From: Enterobacteriaceae endosymbiont of Donacia proxima
GTDB lineage: Bacteria; Pseudomonadota; Gammaproteobacteria; Enterobacterales; Enterobacteriaceae
NCBI RefSeq assembly: GCF_012569285.1
Contig: NZ_CP046198.1
Span: 64,313 to 128,312 of the forward strand
Direction of reading: 5' to 3'
DNA length: 64,000 bases
Under the pieces are notes generated by a model. That model was not told the origin of the DNA. It did no database searches and was given only the letters and a program-made list of their open reading frames with translations. Below are positions 30,829 through 53,488 of this stretch, in pieces (the first letter of the stretch is position 1; each line of letters starts with the position of its first letter). A program made the translations under genes and the position numbers.

Positions 30829-31668
30829 ATGATTATTGATCAATTTTTACAATATTCTTTTAATATTTTAAAAAAAAATAAAATATTAAATTATCAATTA
30901 GAAGCTATTTTATTAGCATCATTTATTTTAAAAAAACCTAAGTCATGGATTTATGGTTTTAATGAAACAAAAATTAATTATAAACAATTTAAAATATTAC
31001 AAAATTTATTAAAAAAAAGAATTAAAGGTATACCTTTAGCTTATATATTAGGTTTTTGTGAATTTTGGTCATTAAAAATTGATGTATCACCTCATGTTTT
31101 AATACCTCGTAAAGATACAGAAATTTTAGTAGATGTTGTTTTAAATAAAATAAATAATAGAATAAAAAAAATATTAGATTTAGGTACTGGAAGTGGTGCA
31201 CTTTCCTTAGCACTTGCTTGTGAATACAATATAATTGATATTACTGCTATAGATTTTTCTAATAAAATTATTAATATAGCTAAAAATAATGCTAAAAAAT
31301 TAAATATTAAAAATATTACTTTTTTAAAAAGTAATTGGTTCAGCCATTTAAAAAATAATACATTTGATATTATCATTAGTAATCCTCCTTATATAAGTTA
31401 TAAAGAATATTTATTTTTTAAAAAACAATTAAAATTTGAACCTATTAAATCATTAGTTTCAAGCGAAAATGGATTAAGTGATTTAAATTATATTATTTTA
31501 AATTCTTTTAAATATTTAAATAATTATGGATGGTTAATTTTAGAGCATGGTTATAAACAAGGATTTATTATAAGAAATAAATTACAAACTCAAAAATTTA
31601 AAAATATTAAACAATATCCTGATATACAAGGATATAATAGAATTATTTGCGGACAAAAAGTTATTTAA
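30829..31668 (+). CDS. prmC: release factor glutamine methyltransferase PrmC
   Basis: PrmC methylates the GGQ glutamine of RF1 and RF2. An N-terminal helical domain leads to the SAM-binding LDLGTGSGALSLALA and the glutamine-binding NPPY motif in IISNPPYISY. Length is 279 aa (277 in E. coli). It follows prfA by 17 nt, so enzyme and substrate are co-transcribed, as in E. coli. Confidence 0.96.
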   Translation: MIIDQFLQYSFNILKKNKILNYQLEAILLASFILKKPKSWIYGFNETKINYKQFKILQNLLKKRIKGIPLAYILGFCEFWSLKIDVSPHVLIPRKDTEILVDVVLNKINNRIKKILDLGTGSGALSLALACEYNIIDITAIDFSNKIINIAKNNAKKLNIKNITFLKSNWFSHLKNNTFDIIISNPPYISYKEYLFFKKQLKFEPIKSLVSSENGLSDLNYIILNSFKYLNNYGWLILEHGYKQGFIIRNKLQTQKFKNIKQYPDIQGYNRIICGQKVI

Positions 31669-31771
31669 AAATATTTTATATAATTAAATTTTCTTATAAT
31701 ATTTTTAATATATTTAGTAAAAAATTTTTGATATTATTAGAAAATGATATTTTTACTTACAAAAATAAAAC

Positions 31772-33037
31772 ATGGAACAAAATGATAATTCTAAAAAAAT
31801 AGAAAAAAAAAATTTTTTATTCGATAAAATACAATTATTAAAGATAGATCATCGAATTATAGGAAAAAAATTAGATTTATATCATTTTCAAGATGAAGCT
31901 CCAGGAATGGTTTTTTGGCATAATAATGGATATATTATTTTTAGAGAATTAGAGAAATTCTTACGTTTTAAACTTAATCAATACAATTATTTAGAAGTAA
32001 AAACTCCTATAATAACTGATATTTCTATCTGGAAAAAAACAGGACATTGGAAAATTTATAAAAAAGCAATTTTTACAACTTATTCAGAAAATAGAAATTA
32101 TTGTATAAAACCAATGAATTGTCCTGCCCATATCCAAATTTTTAAACAAAAATTAAAATCATATAAAGATTTACCATTAAGAATTGCTGAATTTGGTATT
32201 TGTCATAGAAATGAACCATCTGGTTCTTTATATGGTTTAATGAGATTAAGAAATTTTACTCAAGATGATGCTCATATTTTTTGTACAAAAAATCAAGTAA
32301 TAGAAGAAATTAAAAATTGTATTAACATGATGTATGATATCTATCATATTTTTGGTTTTAAAAAATTTTTTGTAAAATTATCTACAAGACCATTACATAA
32401 AATTGGAGATGATCAACTTTGGGATCAAACAGAAAATGATTTATCATTTATTTTAAAAAAAATGAATATTAATTTTAAACATCAAAAAGGTGAAGGAGCT
32501 TTTTATGGTCCAAAAATTGAATTTTCTTTCTTCGATTATTTAAATAGAGAATGGCAATGCGGAACTATACAATTAGATTTTACATTACCTAAATGTTTAA
32601 AATTATTTTATATTAATAAAAATAATAAACGTAGTACTCCTATAATAATACATAGAGCTATTTTAGGTTCATTAGAAAGATTTATAGGTATTATTCTTGA
32701 AGAATTTTCTGGGTATTTACCTGTTTGGCTTGCACCTATACAAATAATTATACTTAATATCAGTGAAAAACATACAGAATATGTTTTAAAAATATTTAAA
32801 ATAATAAAAAAAAATAATATTCGAATTAAATTCGACATTCAAAATAAACAAATTTCTTTTAAAATCAGAAAATATACAATGCAACATATTCCATACATTT
32901 TGATATGTGGAGATCAAGAAATAAAAAATAATTTTATTTCAGTTAGAGATTGTTTTGGTAAAGATTTGGGATTTATGAAAATCCATGATATTATTAATAA
33001 AATTAATAAAGAAATTAATAACTATTATTTAAAATAA
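31772..33037 (+). CDS. thrS: threonyl-tRNA synthetase lacking TGS and editing domains
   Basis: ThrRS charges tRNA-Thr. This version is only 421 aa against 642 in E. coli. It starts just before the linker to the catalytic core (HRIIGKKLDLYHFQ) and keeps the full class II core and the anticodon-binding domain. The three zinc ligands are present: Cys in MNCPAH, His in DDAHIF, His in IHRAILGS. The N-terminal TGS domain and the N2 domain that hydrolyses Ser-tRNA-Thr are absent. Only about 100 nt of A/T-rich DNA lie upstream and no remnant is visible there. The gene heads the conserved thrS-infC-rpmI-rplT-pheST cluster. Confidence 0.95.
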   Translation: MEQNDNSKKIEKKNFLFDKIQLLKIDHRIIGKKLDLYHFQDEAPGMVFWHNNGYIIFRELEKFLRFKLNQYNYLEVKTPIITDISIWKKTGHWKIYKKAIFTTYSENRNYCIKPMNCPAHIQIFKQKLKSYKDLPLRIAEFGICHRNEPSGSLYGLMRLRNFTQDDAHIFCTKNQVIEEIKNCINMMYDIYHIFGFKKFFVKLSTRPLHKIGDDQLWDQTENDLSFILKKMNINFKHQKGEGAFYGPKIEFSFFDYLNREWQCGTIQLDFTLPKCLKLFYINKNNKRSTPIIIHRAILGSLERFIGIILEEFSGYLPVWLAPIQIIILNISEKHTEYVLKIFKIIKKNNIRIKFDIQNKQISFKIRKYTMQHIPYILICGDQEIKNNFISVRDCFGKDLGFMKIHDIINKINKEINNYYLK

Positions 33038-33040
33038 ATT

Positions 33041-33048
33041 AAGGAGGT
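33041..33048 (+). promoter_or_regulatory. strong Shine-Dalgarno of infC
   Basis: AAGGAGGT is a near-perfect Shine-Dalgarno, unusual in this window where most are weak. It stands six bases before the ATT at 33054 and fixes that codon as the infC start. Confidence 0.85.
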
Positions 33049-33053
33049 AAAAT

Positions 33054-33593
33054 ATTAAAATTGGAAAAAAAACAATACAATTATCACGACCTAATAAAAT
33101 TAATAAAAATATTAGGAGTAAAATTGTAAGATTAATAGGATTAAATGGAGAACAAATAGGAATAATTAATCTTAAAGAAGCATTAAAAAAAACAAAAAAT
33201 ACTGGATTTGATTTAGTAGAAATTAGTCCTAATTCTACACCTCCTGTATGTCGTATAATGGATTATGGTAAATTTTTATATACTAAAAATAAGGCTTCTA
33301 AAGAACAAAAAAAAAAACAAAAAATAATACATTTAAAAGAAATTAAATTTCGTCCTGGTACAGATATAGGTGATTATAATGTTAAATTACGCAACATAAT
33401 TCGTTTTATAAAAAAAGGGGATAAAGTAAAAATTACATTAAGATTTAGAGGAAGAGAAATGATGCACACTAGATTAGGTTTTTCTATGCTTAATCGTATA
33501 AAAAATGATGTAGAAAATTTAGCAATAATAGAATTATTTCCTACAAAAATTGAAGGTAGACAAATTATAATGATTTTAATACCAAAAAAATAA
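33054..33593 (+). CDS. infC: translation initiation factor IF-3 with ATT start codon
   Basis: IF-3 discriminates start codons and keeps ribosomal subunits apart. The ORF begins at ATT 33054, as the E. coli gene does, and reads (M)[19 protein letters not shown], giving 179 aa (180 in E. coli). Without the ATT start the first ATG would fall at 33258 inside a conserved segment (RIMDYGKF), losing the N-terminal domain. IF-3 rejects AUU codons, so this start makes its synthesis self-limiting in E. coli. It lies 16 nt after thrS and 25 nt before rpmI. Confidence 0.94.
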
Positions 33594-33618
33594 TAATAAA
33601 TACAATTATGGTTTATAT

Positions 33619-33816
33619 ATGAATAAACTTAAAACAGTACGTAGTGTTAAAAAACGTTTTAAGAAAACGAGTAATGGTTTTTTTAAACATAAAAGAGCTA
33701 ATTTAAGACACTTATTAACTAAAAAAAATAAAAAACATAAAAGATTTTTAAGACAAAAAAAAATAGTTTCAAAGGGAGATTCACGTTCATTAAAAATTTG
33801 TTTACCTTATTTATAA
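33619..33816 (+). CDS. rpmI: 50S ribosomal protein L35
   Basis: This 65-aa very basic protein starts [20 protein letters not shown] and contains [17 protein letters not shown], matching E. coli L35 (65 aa) end to end. It lies between infC and rplT in the standard order and is probably translated from the same mRNA. In E. coli L20 represses this message; I did not identify that operator here. Confidence 0.97.
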
Positions 33817-33858
33817 AATAAATATTTAATAAATAATTATTATAGGATTATATATTAT

Positions 33859-34209
33859 ATGGTTAGAGTTAAACGCGGAATTACTACGAAAACAAGACAT
33901 AAAAAAATTATAAAACAAGCAAAAGGATATTATGGTGCTAGATCTAGATCTTATAGATCTGCTTTCCAAGCAGTAATTAAATCAGGACAATATGCTTATA
34001 GAGATAGAAAACAAAAAAAAAGAAAATTTCGTCAATTATGGATTATTAAAATTAATGCAGCAGCACGTCAAAAAAATATTTCTTATAGTTCTTTAATACA
34101 TAAATTAAAAAAAAATAATATAAATATAAATAGAAAAATTTTAGCTAATATAGCATTATCTGATAATTTGACCTTTAATAAGTTATTAACTTATTCTTTT
34201 AATTCATAA
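33859..34209 (+). CDS. rplT: 50S ribosomal protein L20
   Basis: L20 is an early 50S assembly protein. The 116-aa product has the long basic N-terminal helix ([20 protein letters not shown]) and a globular C-terminal part with [13 protein letters not shown]. coli L20 is 118 aa. It follows rpmI by 42 nt and precedes pheS by 58 nt. No pheM-like leader peptide is seen before pheS. Confidence 0.97.
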
Positions 34210-34267
34210 AATGAATTTTTATTAAATTTTAATTTTTTTATGTTTAAAATATATTAATGAGAATATC

Positions 34268-35263
34268 ATGATAACTAATGACATAGTTGTAATAGCAAAA
34301 AAAGAAATTTCTATAGTAAAAAATCTTAAAGATCTAAATATATTAAAAGTTAAGTATTTAGGTAAAAAAAGTTATATTACTAAACAATTTATGTTAATAA
34401 AAAATTTAAACAAAAATAATAGAATTCATAAAAGTATTATTTATAATAAACAAAAAAAACAAATAAAAAAAATAATAATAAAACGTAAAAAAGAAATAGA
34501 AATAGAACAATATAATAATAAATTTTTAGATCAAAATATTGATGTATCATTACCAGGAAAATATATTCCTTCAGGTTCCAAACACCCTATTACAAATATA
34601 ATTTATGAAATAGAAAATTTTTTTATTAATATTGGATTTAAAATAGTTACAGGACCTGAAATAGAAGATGTTTATCATAATTTTGATGCACTAAACATTT
34701 CAAAATATCATCCAACAAGAACGGAGCAAGATACATTTTGGTTAAATAAAAATATTTTGTTACGCACTCAAACTTCTAATGTACAAATTAGAGTTATGGA
34801 ACAAAATAAACCACCTATAAAAATTTTAACTTCAGGAAAAGTATATCGTCATGATTATGATAGTAATCATACTCCTATGTTTCATCAAATAGAAGGATTA
34901 TTTATTGATAAAAAAGTAACTTTTGTTGATTTAAAAGGAATGTTAGTTTTATTCTTAAATTTTTTCTTTGGTAAAAAATGTAAAATACGTTTTAGACCTT
35001 CTTATTTCCCTTTTACAGAACCTTCTCTAGAAGTAGATATATTAAATAATAATAAACAATGGATAGAAATTTTAGGTGCTGGGATGGTACATCCTTATGT
35101 TTTAAAAAATGTTGGAATAAATAACAACAAATATTGTGGATTTGCTTTCGGATTAGGTATAGAAAGATTAACTATGTTGCGTTATAATCTTTCTGATATT
35201 CGTTTTTTTTATGAAAATGATATACGTTTTCTTAAACAATTTAAATTAAATAATTTTATATGA
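34268..35263 (+). CDS. pheS: phenylalanyl-tRNA synthetase alpha subunit
   Basis: PheS holds the catalytic class II core of the alpha2-beta2 enzyme. An N-terminal coiled-coil (about 1-85) for tRNA contact precedes motif 2 (GKVYRHDYDSNHTPMFHQIEG) and motif 3 (FGLGIERLTML). The alanine that gates the amino-acid pocket (E. coli Ala294) is retained in GFAFG. Length is 331 aa (327 in E. coli). It overlaps the pheT start by 4 nt. Confidence 0.96.
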   Translation: MITNDIVVIAKKEISIVKNLKDLNILKVKYLGKKSYITKQFMLIKNLNKNNRIHKSIIYNKQKKQIKKIIIKRKKEIEIEQYNNKFLDQNIDVSLPGKYIPSGSKHPITNIIYEIENFFINIGFKIVTGPEIEDVYHNFDALNISKYHPTRTEQDTFWLNKNILLRTQTSNVQIRVMEQNKPPIKILTSGKVYRHDYDSNHTPMFHQIEGLFIDKKVTFVDLKGMLVLFLNFFFGKKCKIRFRPSYFPFTEPSLEVDILNNNKQWIEILGAGMVHPYVLKNVGINNNKYCGFAFGLGIERLTMLRYNLSDIRFFYENDIRFLKQFKLNNFI

Positions 35264-37737
35264 TAAAATTTAGTGAATCTTGGTTACGAGAATGGTTTTA
35301 TTATGATGAAGATATTTATTCTCTATCAAATAAAATAACAATGTTAGGATTTCAAATAGAAAAAATTGAATCTATTACTTATAGTAGTAATATCAAACAT
35401 CTAATTAAAGGGAAAGTTATTAACTATAATATATATAAAAAAAATCCTAAAATTTATCAGTTTAAAATATTAACTAATAATGGTAAATTATTAAAAATAT
35501 TTTCTGATATAAATCATTATAATAATAAAATGGAAATTATTTTAGCTACTAAAAATTCTTTTTTATACAAAAAATATATAAAAATACCAAAATATTTTTT
35601 TTTAAAAAAATCAGAAGGATTATTATGTACTCCTAAAATAATTAGTTTATATACAAAATATAATATTATTAAAAATAATATAACTATTTTAAATCAAAAT
35701 AGTAATTTTAAAAAAAATGATAATATTTTAAATTTAAATGATAATATTTTACACATAAATATTCCTACAAATAGATTTGATTGTTTTAATATGTTAGGAT
35801 TTGCGAGAGATTTATCTGTTTTAAATAAAAAAAATAAATTTAATATACCATATGAAAATCATTTAATAAAAAATTCAGAAAAATATCAACTTAATATTAA
35901 CTTTGATAAAAAAATAAAAAATATTTTATATAAATATAGCTTTTGTATAATTAAAAATATTAATTTAACTAAGGAAATTCCTTTTTTTATTAAAGAAAGA
36001 TTATATTATGCAGGAATTAAATTTATATCTAATAATCCATTATTAAATATTCGTAATTATATAATCTTAGAATTAGGATATCCTATACAATTTTATAATT
36101 TTGATCACATTAATGGTAAAATCTATATAAAAAAATACCAGAAAAATAAATTTTATTTTTTAAATTTAACAAATAAAAAAAAAAATTTATTAAATAAAAA
36201 TTCATTATTAATGATTGTAGATGATAGTCAAATAATATCTATACCAGGAATAATACAAAATAAAAATTATTCTGTAAATTTAACAACTAAAAATATTTTG
36301 ATAGAATGTTTATTTTTAAATCCAAAATATATAACTTTTTTATTAAAAAATAATTATCAAGTTAATGATATTTATAATTTCCATAAAAATACTTTAGATC
36401 CATTGATACAAAAAACAGTTCTTATAAGAACTATAAATTTATTATTAGAAATATTTAAAGGAAAAAGAAGTAAAATTCATACAATTAATATTAATAATAT
36501 TAATTATCATAAAAAAACAATAAGTTTATCATTTAAATATGTATATAAAATTTTAGGTTTTTATATTAAAAAAAAAATTATATTTAATATTTTAAATAAA
36601 CTAGGTTTTATTATTATAAAAAAAACAATTAATAATTGTATTATTACGATACCTAGTTGGCGATATGATATAAATATAATGGAAGATATTATAGAAGAAA
36701 TTATGAGAGTATATGGGTATAATCAAATACCTCAAAAAATTAACATTCCTCTTATTAAAAATAATATTATAAAAAAAAATAATTTTATATTAAAATATCA
36801 AAAAATTAATATTAAAAAAATCAAAGATATTTTAATCTATCAAGGATATTATGAAGTAATTAACTATAGTTTTATTAATCCTAAAATACAGTTAATGTTA
36901 TATCCAAAAATAAAATGTATAAAAATTAAAAATCCTCTAACGAGAGAAACATCTGTAATGAGAAATTCTTTATCATATGGATTAATTAATAATATTATTT
37001 ATAATAAAAATAGACAACAAAAAAATTTACGTTTTTTTGAATATGGTTTATGTTTTTTTAAAGATTTTAAAAAAAAAATAGGAATATCACAAAAATTAAT
37101 GTTAGCTGGAATAGTTAATATAAACTCATTAGATACTCATTGGAGTGAGAAAAATAAATATATTAATTTTTATGATATAAAAGGTAATTTAGAATATATT
37201 TTGAATATTTTTTATAAAAAAAATAAAATTGAATTTTATCAACAAAATAATAATACAATACTACATCCTTATATAAATTCATCAATTTATATTAATGATA
37301 CATATGTTGGATATATCGGTATGTTACATCCTAGATTAATTCATTATTTTAATATAAATTCTAATACTTTCTTATTTGAATTATTTTATGATCATATTAT
37401 GATTAATAATACTTTTAATTTTCAAAAATTAATTAATTATCCAATAAATAAAAGAGATATATCTTTTTTTATAAAAGAAAATATTAATTTTAATTGTATT
37501 TTATTACAATTAAAAAAATTAAAATTAAAAAATTTAATAAAAATAAAACTTATAGATATATTTCAAGGAAATAATATCCCTAAAAAATATAAAAATATTA
37601 CTTTAAGTTTATTTTTACAGAACAAAGATCATACATTAAATGATATAGAAATTAATAATATTATAAATAAATGTATTTTAGAATTAAAAAATAAATTTCA
37701 AATTATATTAAGAAATAATATTAATTGTAATAAATAA
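35260..37737 (+). CDS. pheT: phenylalanyl-tRNA synthetase beta subunit, editing site apparently eroded
   Basis: PheT binds tRNA and in most bacteria removes mischarged Tyr in its B3/B4 domain. At 825 aa (795 in E. coli) all domains seem present, including the N-terminal EMAP-like part, the B5 domain (IPSWRYDINIMEDIIEEI) and the C-terminal anticodon-binding domain (PINKRDISFF). The editing pocket looks damaged. The E. coli segment with His261 (GQPMHAFD) reads GYPIQFYNFD at 273-282. The glycine loop reads SIPGIIQN (327-334). The TDASHRYERG segment reads NDIYNFHKNT (369-378). The conserved Glu at ILIEC is kept. It probably aminoacylates but may not proofread. Confidence 0.94.
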   Translation: MIKFSESWLREWFYYDEDIYSLSNKITMLGFQIEKIESITYSSNIKHLIKGKVINYNIYKKNPKIYQFKILTNNGKLLKIFSDINHYNNKMEIILATKNSFLYKKYIKIPKYFFLKKSEGLLCTPKIISLYTKYNIIKNNITILNQNSNFKKNDNILNLNDNILHINIPTNRFDCFNMLGFARDLSVLNKKNKFNIPYENHLIKNSEKYQLNINFDKKIKNILYKYSFCIIKNINLTKEIPFFIKERLYYAGIKFISNNPLLNIRNYIILELGYPIQFYNFDHINGKIYIKKYQKNKFYFLNLTNKKKNLLNKNSLLMIVDDSQIISIPGIIQNKNYSVNLTTKNILIECLFLNPKYITFLLKNNYQVNDIYNFHKNTLDPLIQKTVLIRTINLLLEIFKGKRSKIHTININNINYHKKTISLSFKYVYKILGFYIKKKIIFNILNKLGFIIIKKTINNCIITIPSWRYDINIMEDIIEEIMRVYGYNQIPQKINIPLIKNNIIKKNNFILKYQKINIKKIKDILIYQGYYEVINYSFINPKIQLMLYPKIKCIKIKNPLTRETSVMRNSLSYGLINNIIYNKNRQQKNLRFFEYGLCFFKDFKKKIGISQKLMLAGIVNINSLDTHWSEKNKYINFYDIKGNLEYILNIFYKKNKIEFYQQNNNTILHPYINSSIYINDTYVGYIGMLHPRLIHYFNINSNTFLFELFYDHIMINNTFNFQKLINYPINKRDISFFIKENINFNCILLQLKKLKLKNLIKIKLIDIFQGNNIPKKYKNITLSLFLQNKDHTLNDIEINNIINKCILELKNKFQIILRNNINCNK

Positions 37738-51088: not shown

Positions 51089-53488
51089 TCAAGATATTTT
51101 TTGTAATATATAAAATAATTTTTTACATTCATAAAATGTCCCTATTGTAATTCTTAAACAATTATCTAATATTTTTTCATGATTTTGATCCCGTACAATT
51201 ATATTATTTTTATTTAAAATATCAAAAATAATTTTTGAATTATTAAATTTTACTAAGATAAAATTAGTTTTACTAACAAAAATTTTTTTTACACAATTAC
51301 AATTATTTAATTTTTCTATTAACCATTTTTTATTATTTATAATAGTTTTTACATTATTATTCATAATAATTATATTTTTTGTATTTAAAGCTTGTACTGC
51401 AATATCTAAAACTGGAATAGATATTGGATATGGTGCTATAACTTTAAGTAATATCTTTATAAGATATTTATTTGTTAATATAAAACCACAACGTAAACCT
51501 GCTAAACCAAATGCTTTAGATAAAGTTCTTAATACAATTAAATTTTCATATTTATTAATTAAATAAATCATGGTCTGATCAAGACAAAATTCAATGTATG
51601 CTTCATCAATAACAATTATTATTTTATTTTTTGTGAATTCTAACAATTGTATTATATCATTTTTATTTAAAGTATTTCCTGTAGGATTATTAGGATTACA
51701 AAAATAAATAATTTTAACATTTTTAAGATTTTTTTTAATTTTATTAAAATTTATTTTCCAATTATTTTTTATACTAAAAATCATTAAATATTTAATATTT
51801 AATATATTAGCAGTAACACGATACATATCATATGTTGGAGGACAAAATAAGATTTTATCATATTTTTGATCGCAAAATGTTCTCATAATTATATCTATAC
51901 CTTCATCTGCACCTCTAGTAATTAAAATATTTTTATTATTTAAATTAATATATTTACTATAAAAATTAAGTAATTTTTTAGGTTGTTGTTCTGGATATCT
52001 ATTTAATATTTTATTATTAGTAGAAAATAATGAAATAATAGGAGATTCATTCGCATTTAACATGATTTTATTATTAATATTATTTTTATATAATAATCTT
52101 GCTGATTGATATGGAATTAAATTTAGAATATTGTTTTTAACTATCTGATTAATATTTTTAATTTTTTGTTTTTGTTGATTTATAAAATTTTTTCTTATTG
52201 TTACAGAATTACTATGACCTAATAAATTTTCTGTTTTTGCCATAGTTTCTACTGTAAAAGAAATATTTAATAAACCATTTTTTGTTAATTTTTGTACAGA
52301 GATTTTTTTTTGAAAATCAGAAATACTTAAACAAGAATAAGTTCTAGCATAACCATAAGTAGGTAGAACATGATTAGTCCCAGAAGCATAATCTCCTACT
52401 GATTCAGGAGCCCAATTACCTAAAAAAATAGATCCTGCATTGATAATATTAGATAAAATTTTTTTATAGTTTTTACATTGGATAATAAGATGTTCAGGAG
52501 CGTATGTATTTACTATATTAACACATTCATTTATATTATTTACGATTATAATATAACTATTACTAAGTGATTTTATTATTATATTTTTTTTAGGTATTTT
52601 TTCTAATTGTTTAAAAAGATTTTTTTTAACTAATTTTCCAATTTTTTCCTCAGTAGTTATTAATAATACTTGTGAATCAATACCATGTTCTGCTTGTGAT
52701 AATAAATCTGCTATAATAAAATTATAATTTGCCGATTCATCTGCAATAATCATTAATTCTGATGGACCAGCTGGCATATCTATAGAAGTTTTATTAAAAA
52801 AAGTCATGTTATTACTAACTTGTTTTTTAGCTTCTGTAACATAAATATTTCCAGGTCCAAAAATTTTATCTACTTTATCAATAGATTGTGTTCCATAAGC
52901 CATAGCAGCTATAGCATGTGCGCCTCCTACTTGAAATATATTTTGTATATTACATAAATTAGCAGCAAATAAAATTTCGTTAGAAATCGGAGCAGGAGAA
53001 CATAAAATAATATTAGGACATAAAGCTATTTGTGCTGGTATTCCTAACATTAATACTGTAGAAAATAATGATGATGTTCCTCCTGGAATATATAATCCTA
53101 TCCTAGATATAGGACGAAAAATATGGCTACAAAATACTCCAGGTATAATTTCAATTATTTTTTTTTTTATAACCTGATATTTATGAAATTTATAAATATT
53201 ATTATATGCATTTTGTATCGCATTTTTTATATCATGATTTATATAAAATTTTGCATTAAATATTTGTTTTTTATTAATTTGTAAATTATTAATTTTGATT
53301 TTATCAAATAATAAACTATATTTTTTTAAAGCACTATCACCATTTTCCTTAACTTGTTTCAAAATATTTTTTACATCATTTTTAATTTTTTTATCTATAA
53401 AGAATATTGGTCGAGATAATATTTTTTTTTTGTAATCTTTATTACAATTATCCCAATAGATAATATCGTTTATAATATTCATTATCAT
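51089..53488 (-). CDS. hisDC: fused histidinol dehydrogenase - histidinol-phosphate aminotransferase
   Basis: One uninterrupted ORF of 799 aa covers HisD (about 1-440) and HisC (about 445-799). HisD is complete: zinc ligands Q265, H268, D366 and H425, and catalytic E332-H333 in APEHL. HisC is complete: NANESP, NPNNPTG, DEAYIEF and the PLP-binding Lys658 in LRTLSKA. The junction, residues 434-446 (NFINQQKQKIKNI), replaces the stop/start overlap that separates hisD and hisC in E. coli. HisC lacks its own start Met. The ORF start ATG overlaps the hisG stop by one base. HisC acts at step seven and HisD at the last two, with the HisB phosphatase between them. Confidence 0.95.
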   Translation of the reverse strand: MIMNIINDIIYWDNCNKDYKKKILSRPIFFIDKKIKNDVKNILKQVKENGDSALKKYSLLFDKIKINNLQINKKQIFNAKFYINHDIKNAIQNAYNNIYKFHKYQVIKKKIIEIIPGVFCSHIFRPISRIGLYIPGGTSSLFSTVLMLGIPAQIALCPNIILCSPAPISNEILFAANLCNIQNIFQVGGAHAIAAMAYGTQSIDKVDKIFGPGNIYVTEAKKQVSNNMTFFNKTSIDMPAGPSELMIIADESANYNFIIADLLSQAEHGIDSQVLLITTEEKIGKLVKKNLFKQLEKIPKKNIIIKSLSNSYIIIVNNINECVNIVNTYAPEHLIIQCKNYKKILSNIINAGSIFLGNWAPESVGDYASGTNHVLPTYGYARTYSCLSISDFQKKISVQKLTKNGLLNISFTVETMAKTENLLGHSNSVTIRKNFINQQKQKIKNINQIVKNNILNLIPYQSARLLYKNNINNKIMLNANESPIISLFSTNNKILNRYPEQQPKKLLNFYSKYINLNNKNILITRGADEGIDIIMRTFCDQKYDKILFCPPTYDMYRVTANILNIKYLMIFSIKNNWKINFNKIKKNLKNVKIIYFCNPNNPTGNTLNKNDIIQLLEFTKNKIIIVIDEAYIEFCLDQTMIYLINKYENLIVLRTLSKAFGLAGLRCGFILTNKYLIKILLKVIAPYPISIPVLDIAVQALNTKNIIIMNNNVKTIINNKKWLIEKLNNCNCVKKIFVSKTNFILVKFNNSKIIFDILNKNNIIVRDQNHEKILDNCLRITIGTFYECKKLFYILQKIS

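Follow-up and report, generated by a model that had tools for sequence, protein, structure and literature searches.

The thrS gene in the window, which here means the whole 64,000-nucleotide stretch of DNA analysed from the Enterobacteriaceae endosymbiont of Donacia proxima, very probably encodes a working threonyl-tRNA synthetase (ThrRS) without post-transfer editing, as part of a selective loss of threonine, leucine, and phenylalanine proofreading. The evidence comes from the anatomy of the gene and its protein, from the recurrence of the short form across the symbionts of reed beetles and their relatives, and from the state of the editing sites in the other proofreading synthetases of the same genomes.

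Anatomy and surroundings of the core-only ThrRS

The window ThrRS contains two Pfam domains only, tRNA-synt_2b (1.4e-54) and HGTP_anticodon (2.2e-16), and neither TGS nor tRNA_SAD is matched at the same threshold (E ≤ 0.001). N1 (TGS) and N2 (SAD), which are typical of full-length members of the NCBIfam thrS family (TIGR00418), are missing, and the protein matches positions 155–564 of the 565 positions of that model, with both the class II core and the HGTP anticodon domain found. The score of 524.1 bits exceeds the curated cut-off of 383.65; as this equivalog cut-off is passed on the core alone, the window ThrRS is a core-only member. In phmmer alignments, residues 21–420 correspond to residues 238–637 of full-length E. 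coli ThrRS (1qf6), and residues 26–420 to residues 2–396 of the 401-residue chain 1evk_A. The 1evk and 1evl entries are the truncated form of E. coli ThrRS made by crystallographers; this construct can be aligned over nearly the whole window ThrRS, but it is man-made. An earlier note on this DNA, made from the letters alone, had described a 421-residue ThrS that begins at the catalytic core without N1 or N2, and Pfam, NCBIfam, and phmmer all uphold that description. The retention of the zinc ligands (24 of 24 genomes, see below) and of the anticodon domain is likewise borne out, as is the statement that the approximately 100 nucleotides upstream hold no remnant of N1 or N2, since the N1–N2 query finds no match in the 103-nucleotide spacer. 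Rfam gives no match within 31400–34400 (E ≤ 1), and alifold across the 24 genomes finds no conserved structure in the spacer.

The nearest named record is the chromosome of the Donacia piscatrix symbiont, whose ThrRS is 94% identical to that of the window. Both tRNA-Thr genes (GGU and UGU) are present, with G1–C72, C2–G71, and A73. The E. coli gene order thrS–infC–rpmI–rplT–pheS–pheT is retained (Table 1). The infC gene apparently keeps its rare ATT start, and the ATG-started reading frame there, from an internal ATG at 33258, encodes only 111 residues. At a distance from this cluster, on the minus strand at 51089–53488, lies a hisD–hisC-like fusion, a 799-residue reading frame that joins histidinol dehydrogenase to an aminotransferase I/II domain.

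Table 1. Features of thrS and its neighbourhood, in window coordinates
Feature	Position	Strand	Remarks
prmC	30829..31668	+	upstream of thrS in 24/24 reed-beetle symbionts
prmC–thrS spacer	31669..31771	+	103 nt; no N1/N2 match, Rfam match or conserved fold
thrS (ThrRS: short leader, catalytic core, anticodon-binding domain)	31772..33037	+	421 aa, ATG start, exact ORF
ThrRS N-terminal leader, residues 1–20 (MEQNDNSKK...)	31772..31831	+	precedes the part alignable to E. coli ThrRS
Zinc ligand Cys117 (E. coli C334)	32120..32122	+	by alignment
Zinc ligand His168 (E. coli H385)	32273..32275	+	by alignment
Zinc ligand His294 (E. coli H511)	32651..32653	+	by alignment
Anticodon-binding domain (HGTP_anticodon), ThrRS residues 324–413	32741..33010	+	Pfam
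infC (IF3)	33054..33593	+	ATT start; start and name from sequence and gene order
rpmI (L35)	33619..33816	+	65 aa; named from position and gene order
rplT (L20)	33859..34209	+	
pheS	34268..35263	+	
pheT	35260..37737	+	825 aa; B3/B4 recognisable, editing-site residues degraded
PheT B3/B4 domain, residues 225–399	35932..36456	+	H265Q, G318Q, T354N, A356I; E334 kept (E. coli numbering)

Distribution of the short form

The genus sample comprises 24 genomes of reed-beetle (Donaciinae) symbionts, the window's genome among them. Read from stop to stop, the ThrRS frame spans 417–450 residues in all 24, and most of them have a recognisable leader that starts like MEQND or MQQNN. The spacer between prmC and the first ATG of thrS measures 72–230 nucleotides, which leaves no room for an N1–N2 domain pair of approximately 240 residues. 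Within the core, the zinc ligands C334, H385, and H511 are conserved in 24 of 24 genomes, and M332, R363, R375, Q381, D383, Y462, K465, Q479, S517, and R520 are equally invariant, while the position aligned with R589 is His in every case; the positions checked were the presumed substrate-site residues and R589. In 9 of the 24 symbionts, the window's included, the NCPGH motif reads NCPAH (G336 to Ala; window 32126–32128). The dN/dS ratio of thrS lies between 0.08 and 0.24 in all nine pairs computed, which places the core under purifying selection in those pairs. The 24 sequences form a single clade in the ThrRS core tree (support 100/100), and perfect synteny has been described across 26 species of reed-beetle symbionts (PMC7289800). 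The presence of the short form in 24 of 24 genomes makes chance or assembly error very unlikely. Alignment of sister symbionts, suggested in the earlier note as a way to date the deletion, shows the short form to be common to all, and the loss of N1 and N2 is read from these sequences as ancestral to the reed-beetle symbionts.

The short form is not unique to this group. Within a family sample of 392 genomes, ThrRS length was checked in 39 relatives, mostly picked for weak thrS scores together with a few sisters; the frame is core-sized (up to 483 residues) in 26, spans 567–651 residues in 12, and is broken into two fragments in one (G231). The ThrRS frame at the named Westeberhardia locus L052 has 650 residues, a length that spoke against identifying genus g6 with Westeberhardia. 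Three of the 26 short cases (G185, G452, and G294) carry a single stop inside the ThrRS match. Four others of the 26, the genomes of genus g136 (G171, G280, G352, and G412; about 300 kb), show six or seven in-frame TGA codons in each ThrRS match, and more are found in the LeuRS and PheT of G171 and G352, with 19 in the LeuRS of G171; in this genus UGA probably encodes an amino acid, perhaps Trp.

The ThrRS core tree contains 60 sequences, namely the 24 from reed-beetle symbionts, 19 other short ones, and 17 of full length; 19 of the 26 short sequences from outside the genus are included, and the other seven were left out. As 12 of its 57 branches are open and several rows are long, the reading rests on well-supported splits and on pairs within a genus. 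The short state requires seven changes on this tree, five of them forced by well-supported branches, and a single origin appears in none of 200 bootstrap trees. Sister pairs within one genus differ in their ThrRS state (G185/G288, G452/G254, G189/G291, and G273/G161). These patterns are best read as several independent losses of the N-terminal half among the relatives.

Genomes G425 and G299 hold stop-ridden remnants of N1–N2 upstream of a core-sized thrS, and in G273 thrS is split, with a remnant of the N-terminal half upstream of the core-sized gene (L155/L226); from their sequences, the three are taken as snapshots of N1–N2 loss under way. Among 29 full-length ThrRSs of reduced relatives, the four editing residues H73, H77, C182, and H186 are all kept in only three, three of the four are kept in another three, and one or none in 23. 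The deletion of N1–N2 appears to mark the final stage of a common process.

Editing sites of other synthetases and the search for a replacement

The residues scored in the other synthetases are those taken to be important for editing, a choice supported for LeuRS and PheT by their conservation in ten control genomes of larger size (1.7–5.1 Mb). Three enzymes keep these residues unchanged in all 24 reed-beetle symbionts: AlaRS (H564, H568, C666, and H670), IleRS (T241–243, N250, H333, and D342), and ValRS (T222, R223, K277, and D286). In LeuRS and PheT, whose residue states were read from multiple alignments, the sites are degraded. The TTRPDT motif of LeuRS is gone from all 24 (IEKKYI-like in Donacia; leuS loci L327–L346 and L351–L354 of G000–G023) and T252 is altered in every genome, with D345 retained throughout. 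PheT (the window copy and loci L307–L326 and L347–L350) carries G318Q and an altered A356 in 24 of 24 and altered T354 and H265 in 23 each, with E334 retained in all; no genome has all five scored residues intact, and G017 retains three (H265, E334, and T354). The universal retention of LeuRS D345 and PheT E334 means that weak residual editing activity is possible in both enzymes. All ten controls have intact LeuRS editing residues. Seven of them keep the full set of five PheT residues, with one change in two genomes and two changes in G062; each PheT position is intact in nine or ten. Mean pairwise identity falls from 0.73 in the rest of LeuRS to 0.52 in its editing domain; the corresponding values are 0.75 and 0.66 for IleRS, 0.71 and 0.70 for ValRS, 0.68 and 0.65 for AlaRS, and 0.60 and 0.56 for PheT. 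In ProRS, scored in the window's genome only, K279 is retained and H369 is Tyr.

A crude rule was used to count triple losses, with ThrRS scored as lost when short or with at most two of four residues, LeuRS when T252 is changed, and PheT when at most two of five residues remain. The rule could be applied to 57 of 70 reduced genomes, a non-random set for which small size and a weak ThrRS were the selection criteria, in which all three enzymes are scored as lost in 42 (23 of them reed-beetle symbionts), two in 11 (including G017), one in a single genome, and none in three. Some PheT frames are also shortened: those of G008 (L315) and G018 (L325), with 707 and 711 residues, lack about 150 N-terminal residues present in the other 22 (817–859 residues), which may mean that the N-terminal tRNA-binding part has been lost, and in G201 only the C-terminal half of PheT was found (C1:50779–51969; query positions 398–793, 408-residue frame), a form that may lack the B3/B4 editing region.

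A second, free-standing copy of the editing function was sought among SAD, INS, and N1–N2 homologues. A query of N1–N2 from the full-length relative P0001 matches none of the 24 reed-beetle genomes (E ≤ 0.1); it matches 29 of 30 comparison genomes with a ThrRS frame longer than 500 residues and misses G340 (567 residues). In the window's genome SAD is matched once, in an 892-residue frame identified as AlaRS by alignment, and a single SAD match per genome, in AlaRS, is seen throughout the 24; the only INS match in the window's genome lies within the 589-residue ProRS frame. With AlaRS and ProRS as the sole matches, a stand-alone editor of the SAD or INS type was rejected for this genome. The separate N2-bearing reading frame that the earlier note named as contrary evidence was thus not found, nor was any ThrRS-type editor among these SAD, INS, and N1–N2 homologues elsewhere in the genome.

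Predicted consequences for fidelity, competing readings, and significance

In the proposed mechanism, the ancestor shared by the reed-beetle symbionts would have lost N1 and N2, and translation would now begin at the short leader before the core. The core is expected to charge threonine as usual and would sometimes activate serine, because serine, unlike valine, is not rejected at the zinc site (PMC4787780). Once formed, Ser-tRNA(Thr) would not be removed by a ThrRS that lacks N2; a construct of Anabaena ThrRS T2 without N1–N2 has null editing (PMC4787780), and a bacterial ThrRS from which the editing domain has been removed is reported to keep its activation intact but to charge tRNA less efficiently (PMC4267643), which would be a cost to the symbiont as well. 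Remaining discrimination against serine would likely come from the preference of the zinc site for threonine, and the core may retain some hydrolysis of Ser-AMP, as yeast mitochondrial ThrRS does. The expectation that the enzyme should be unable to clear serine mischarging stands for post-transfer editing, since N2 is missing, and is too broad as a blanket statement in view of the Ser-AMP hydrolysis by the yeast core (PMC4267643). A favourable Thr:Ser ratio perhaps softens the loss, as the symbiont produces threonine but no serine; in all four beetle genera the symbionts keep threonine biosynthesis, and pathways for non-essential amino acids have been lost (PMC7289800). Symbiont proteins are therefore predicted to be built, probably, with more errors than usual, with raised substitution of Ser for Thr and a tolerance of such errors.

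The deletion may also bear on regulation. In E. coli, the thrS mRNA mimics the anticodon arm of the tRNA, the enzyme, once bound, blocks the 30S subunit by means of its amino terminus, and deletion of the amino-terminal region abolishes regulation (PMC7373986). The supposition that the N-terminal domains bind the operator does not agree with this account, in which they block the 30S subunit instead; the loss of thrS autoregulation in the symbiont is nevertheless plausible by analogy.

Several other readings of the short gene have to be weighed. An assembly or frameshift artefact that hides the N-terminal half, for which no evidence was found, deserves next to no credence and is contradicted by the agreement of 24 of 24 genomes, with spacers of 72–230 nucleotides and no N1–N2 match in any of them. 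Decay of thrS into a pseudogene, or the charging of tRNA-Thr by an enzyme supplied by the host, would suit a strongly reduced genome in which half of the gene is gone; but the core residues are conserved in every genome, the nine computed pairs indicate purifying selection (dN/dS 0.08–0.24), and the window thrS is the one strong ThrRS match among the matches listed for the genome, so that this reading is exceedingly unlikely and was dropped. An unrelated stand-alone deacylase could edit in trans and keep fidelity normal, for example a DTD-like protein comparable to the ThrRS-ed of some archaea. Archaea with short ThrRS do have such editors (PMC7373986), and the search was confined to the SAD, INS, and N1–N2 types; however, no SAD protein beyond AlaRS, no INS protein beyond ProRS, and no N1–N2 homologue was found in the 464,530 bases searched, which equal the published chromosome (458,077) plus plasmid (6,453) (PMC7289800), and the parallel degradation of the editing sites in LeuRS and PheRS points to a relaxation of selection for proofreading. 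This reading is considered improbable.

A less distant alternative, still unlikely, is that the core itself largely keeps fidelity, through pre-transfer hydrolysis of Ser-AMP or through a site that rejects serine, such as the one changed from NCPGH to NCPAH, so that the loss of N2 costs little. The yeast mitochondrial enzyme, which has no editing domain, does hydrolyse Ser-AMP in its core, yet this does not prevent Ser-tRNA(Thr) from building up in vitro (PMC4267643). Position 336 is Ala in 9 of 24 reed-beetle symbionts and in 7 of the 36 other sequences of the set, but 15 of the 24 genomes that share the loss keep Gly there, and the zinc ligands and ten other listed substrate-site residues are unchanged in all 24. 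The reading preferred here thus remains that of a functional ThrRS without post-transfer editing.

Core-only or editing-less ThrRS as such is already known, as the earlier note rightly stated, from yeast mitochondria (PMC4267643) and archaea (PMC7373986) and, in degenerate form, from Mycoplasma (PMC4014445). Yeast mitochondrial ThrRS (MST1/ScmtThrRS) likewise consists only of the core and a C-terminal tRNA-binding domain and has lost the whole editing domain, but it is a nuclear-encoded organellar enzyme, and that of S. cerevisiae also serves the unusual tRNA-Thr1 with codon reassignment; its residual pre-transfer editing has been measured (PMC4267643), whereas in the symbiont ThrRS such editing is a prediction. 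Archaeal short ThrRS is paired with a separate DTD-like ThrRS-ed (PMC7373986), whereas editors of the SAD, INS, and N1–N2 types, the ones covered by the search, were not found in the symbiont. In Mycoplasma, also host-restricted bacteria with reduced genomes, the same three enzymes (ThrRS, PheRS, and LeuRS) are affected, but by mutations or deletions within the editing domains (PMC4014445), whereas both N domains are completely missing from the symbiont ThrRS. According to PMC7373986, no Mycoplasma with three or more editing losses is known, the limit being two per genome, whereas all three enzymes are affected in the same reed-beetle symbionts. As cited in PMC11020763 and PMC7373986, Melnikov et al. 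2018 (PNAS) described degenerate editing sites in host-restricted bacteria with small genomes. A search of the open-licence literature yielded no description of the ThrRS deletion in symbionts of reed beetles, and the terms "tRNA synthetase" and "thrS" are absent from the main texts of PMC12508126 and PMC7289800; the case may already be listed in Melnikov et al. 2018.

Of greater interest than the single gene is the wider pattern of three losses and three retentions across a symbiont clade. On balance, the comparison favours three synthetases (ThrRS, LeuRS, and PheRS) being editing-deficient at once, beyond the limit of two in Mycoplasma, with the editing of AlaRS, IleRS, and ValRS kept by selection, in a state that is old, stable across the beetle subfamily, and recurrent in other insect symbionts. 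The window ThrRS offers a natural core-only bacterial enzyme for studying residual serine discrimination. The 24 close genomes lack one proofreading domain entirely, have two others in a degraded state, and keep three, and they open to testing the questions of how much mistranslation a bacterium withstands and which errors it does not tolerate. From this pattern, Thr codons should be read more often as Ser, Leu codons as residues other than Leu, and Phe codons as Tyr, with normal fidelity expected for Ala, Ile, and Val.
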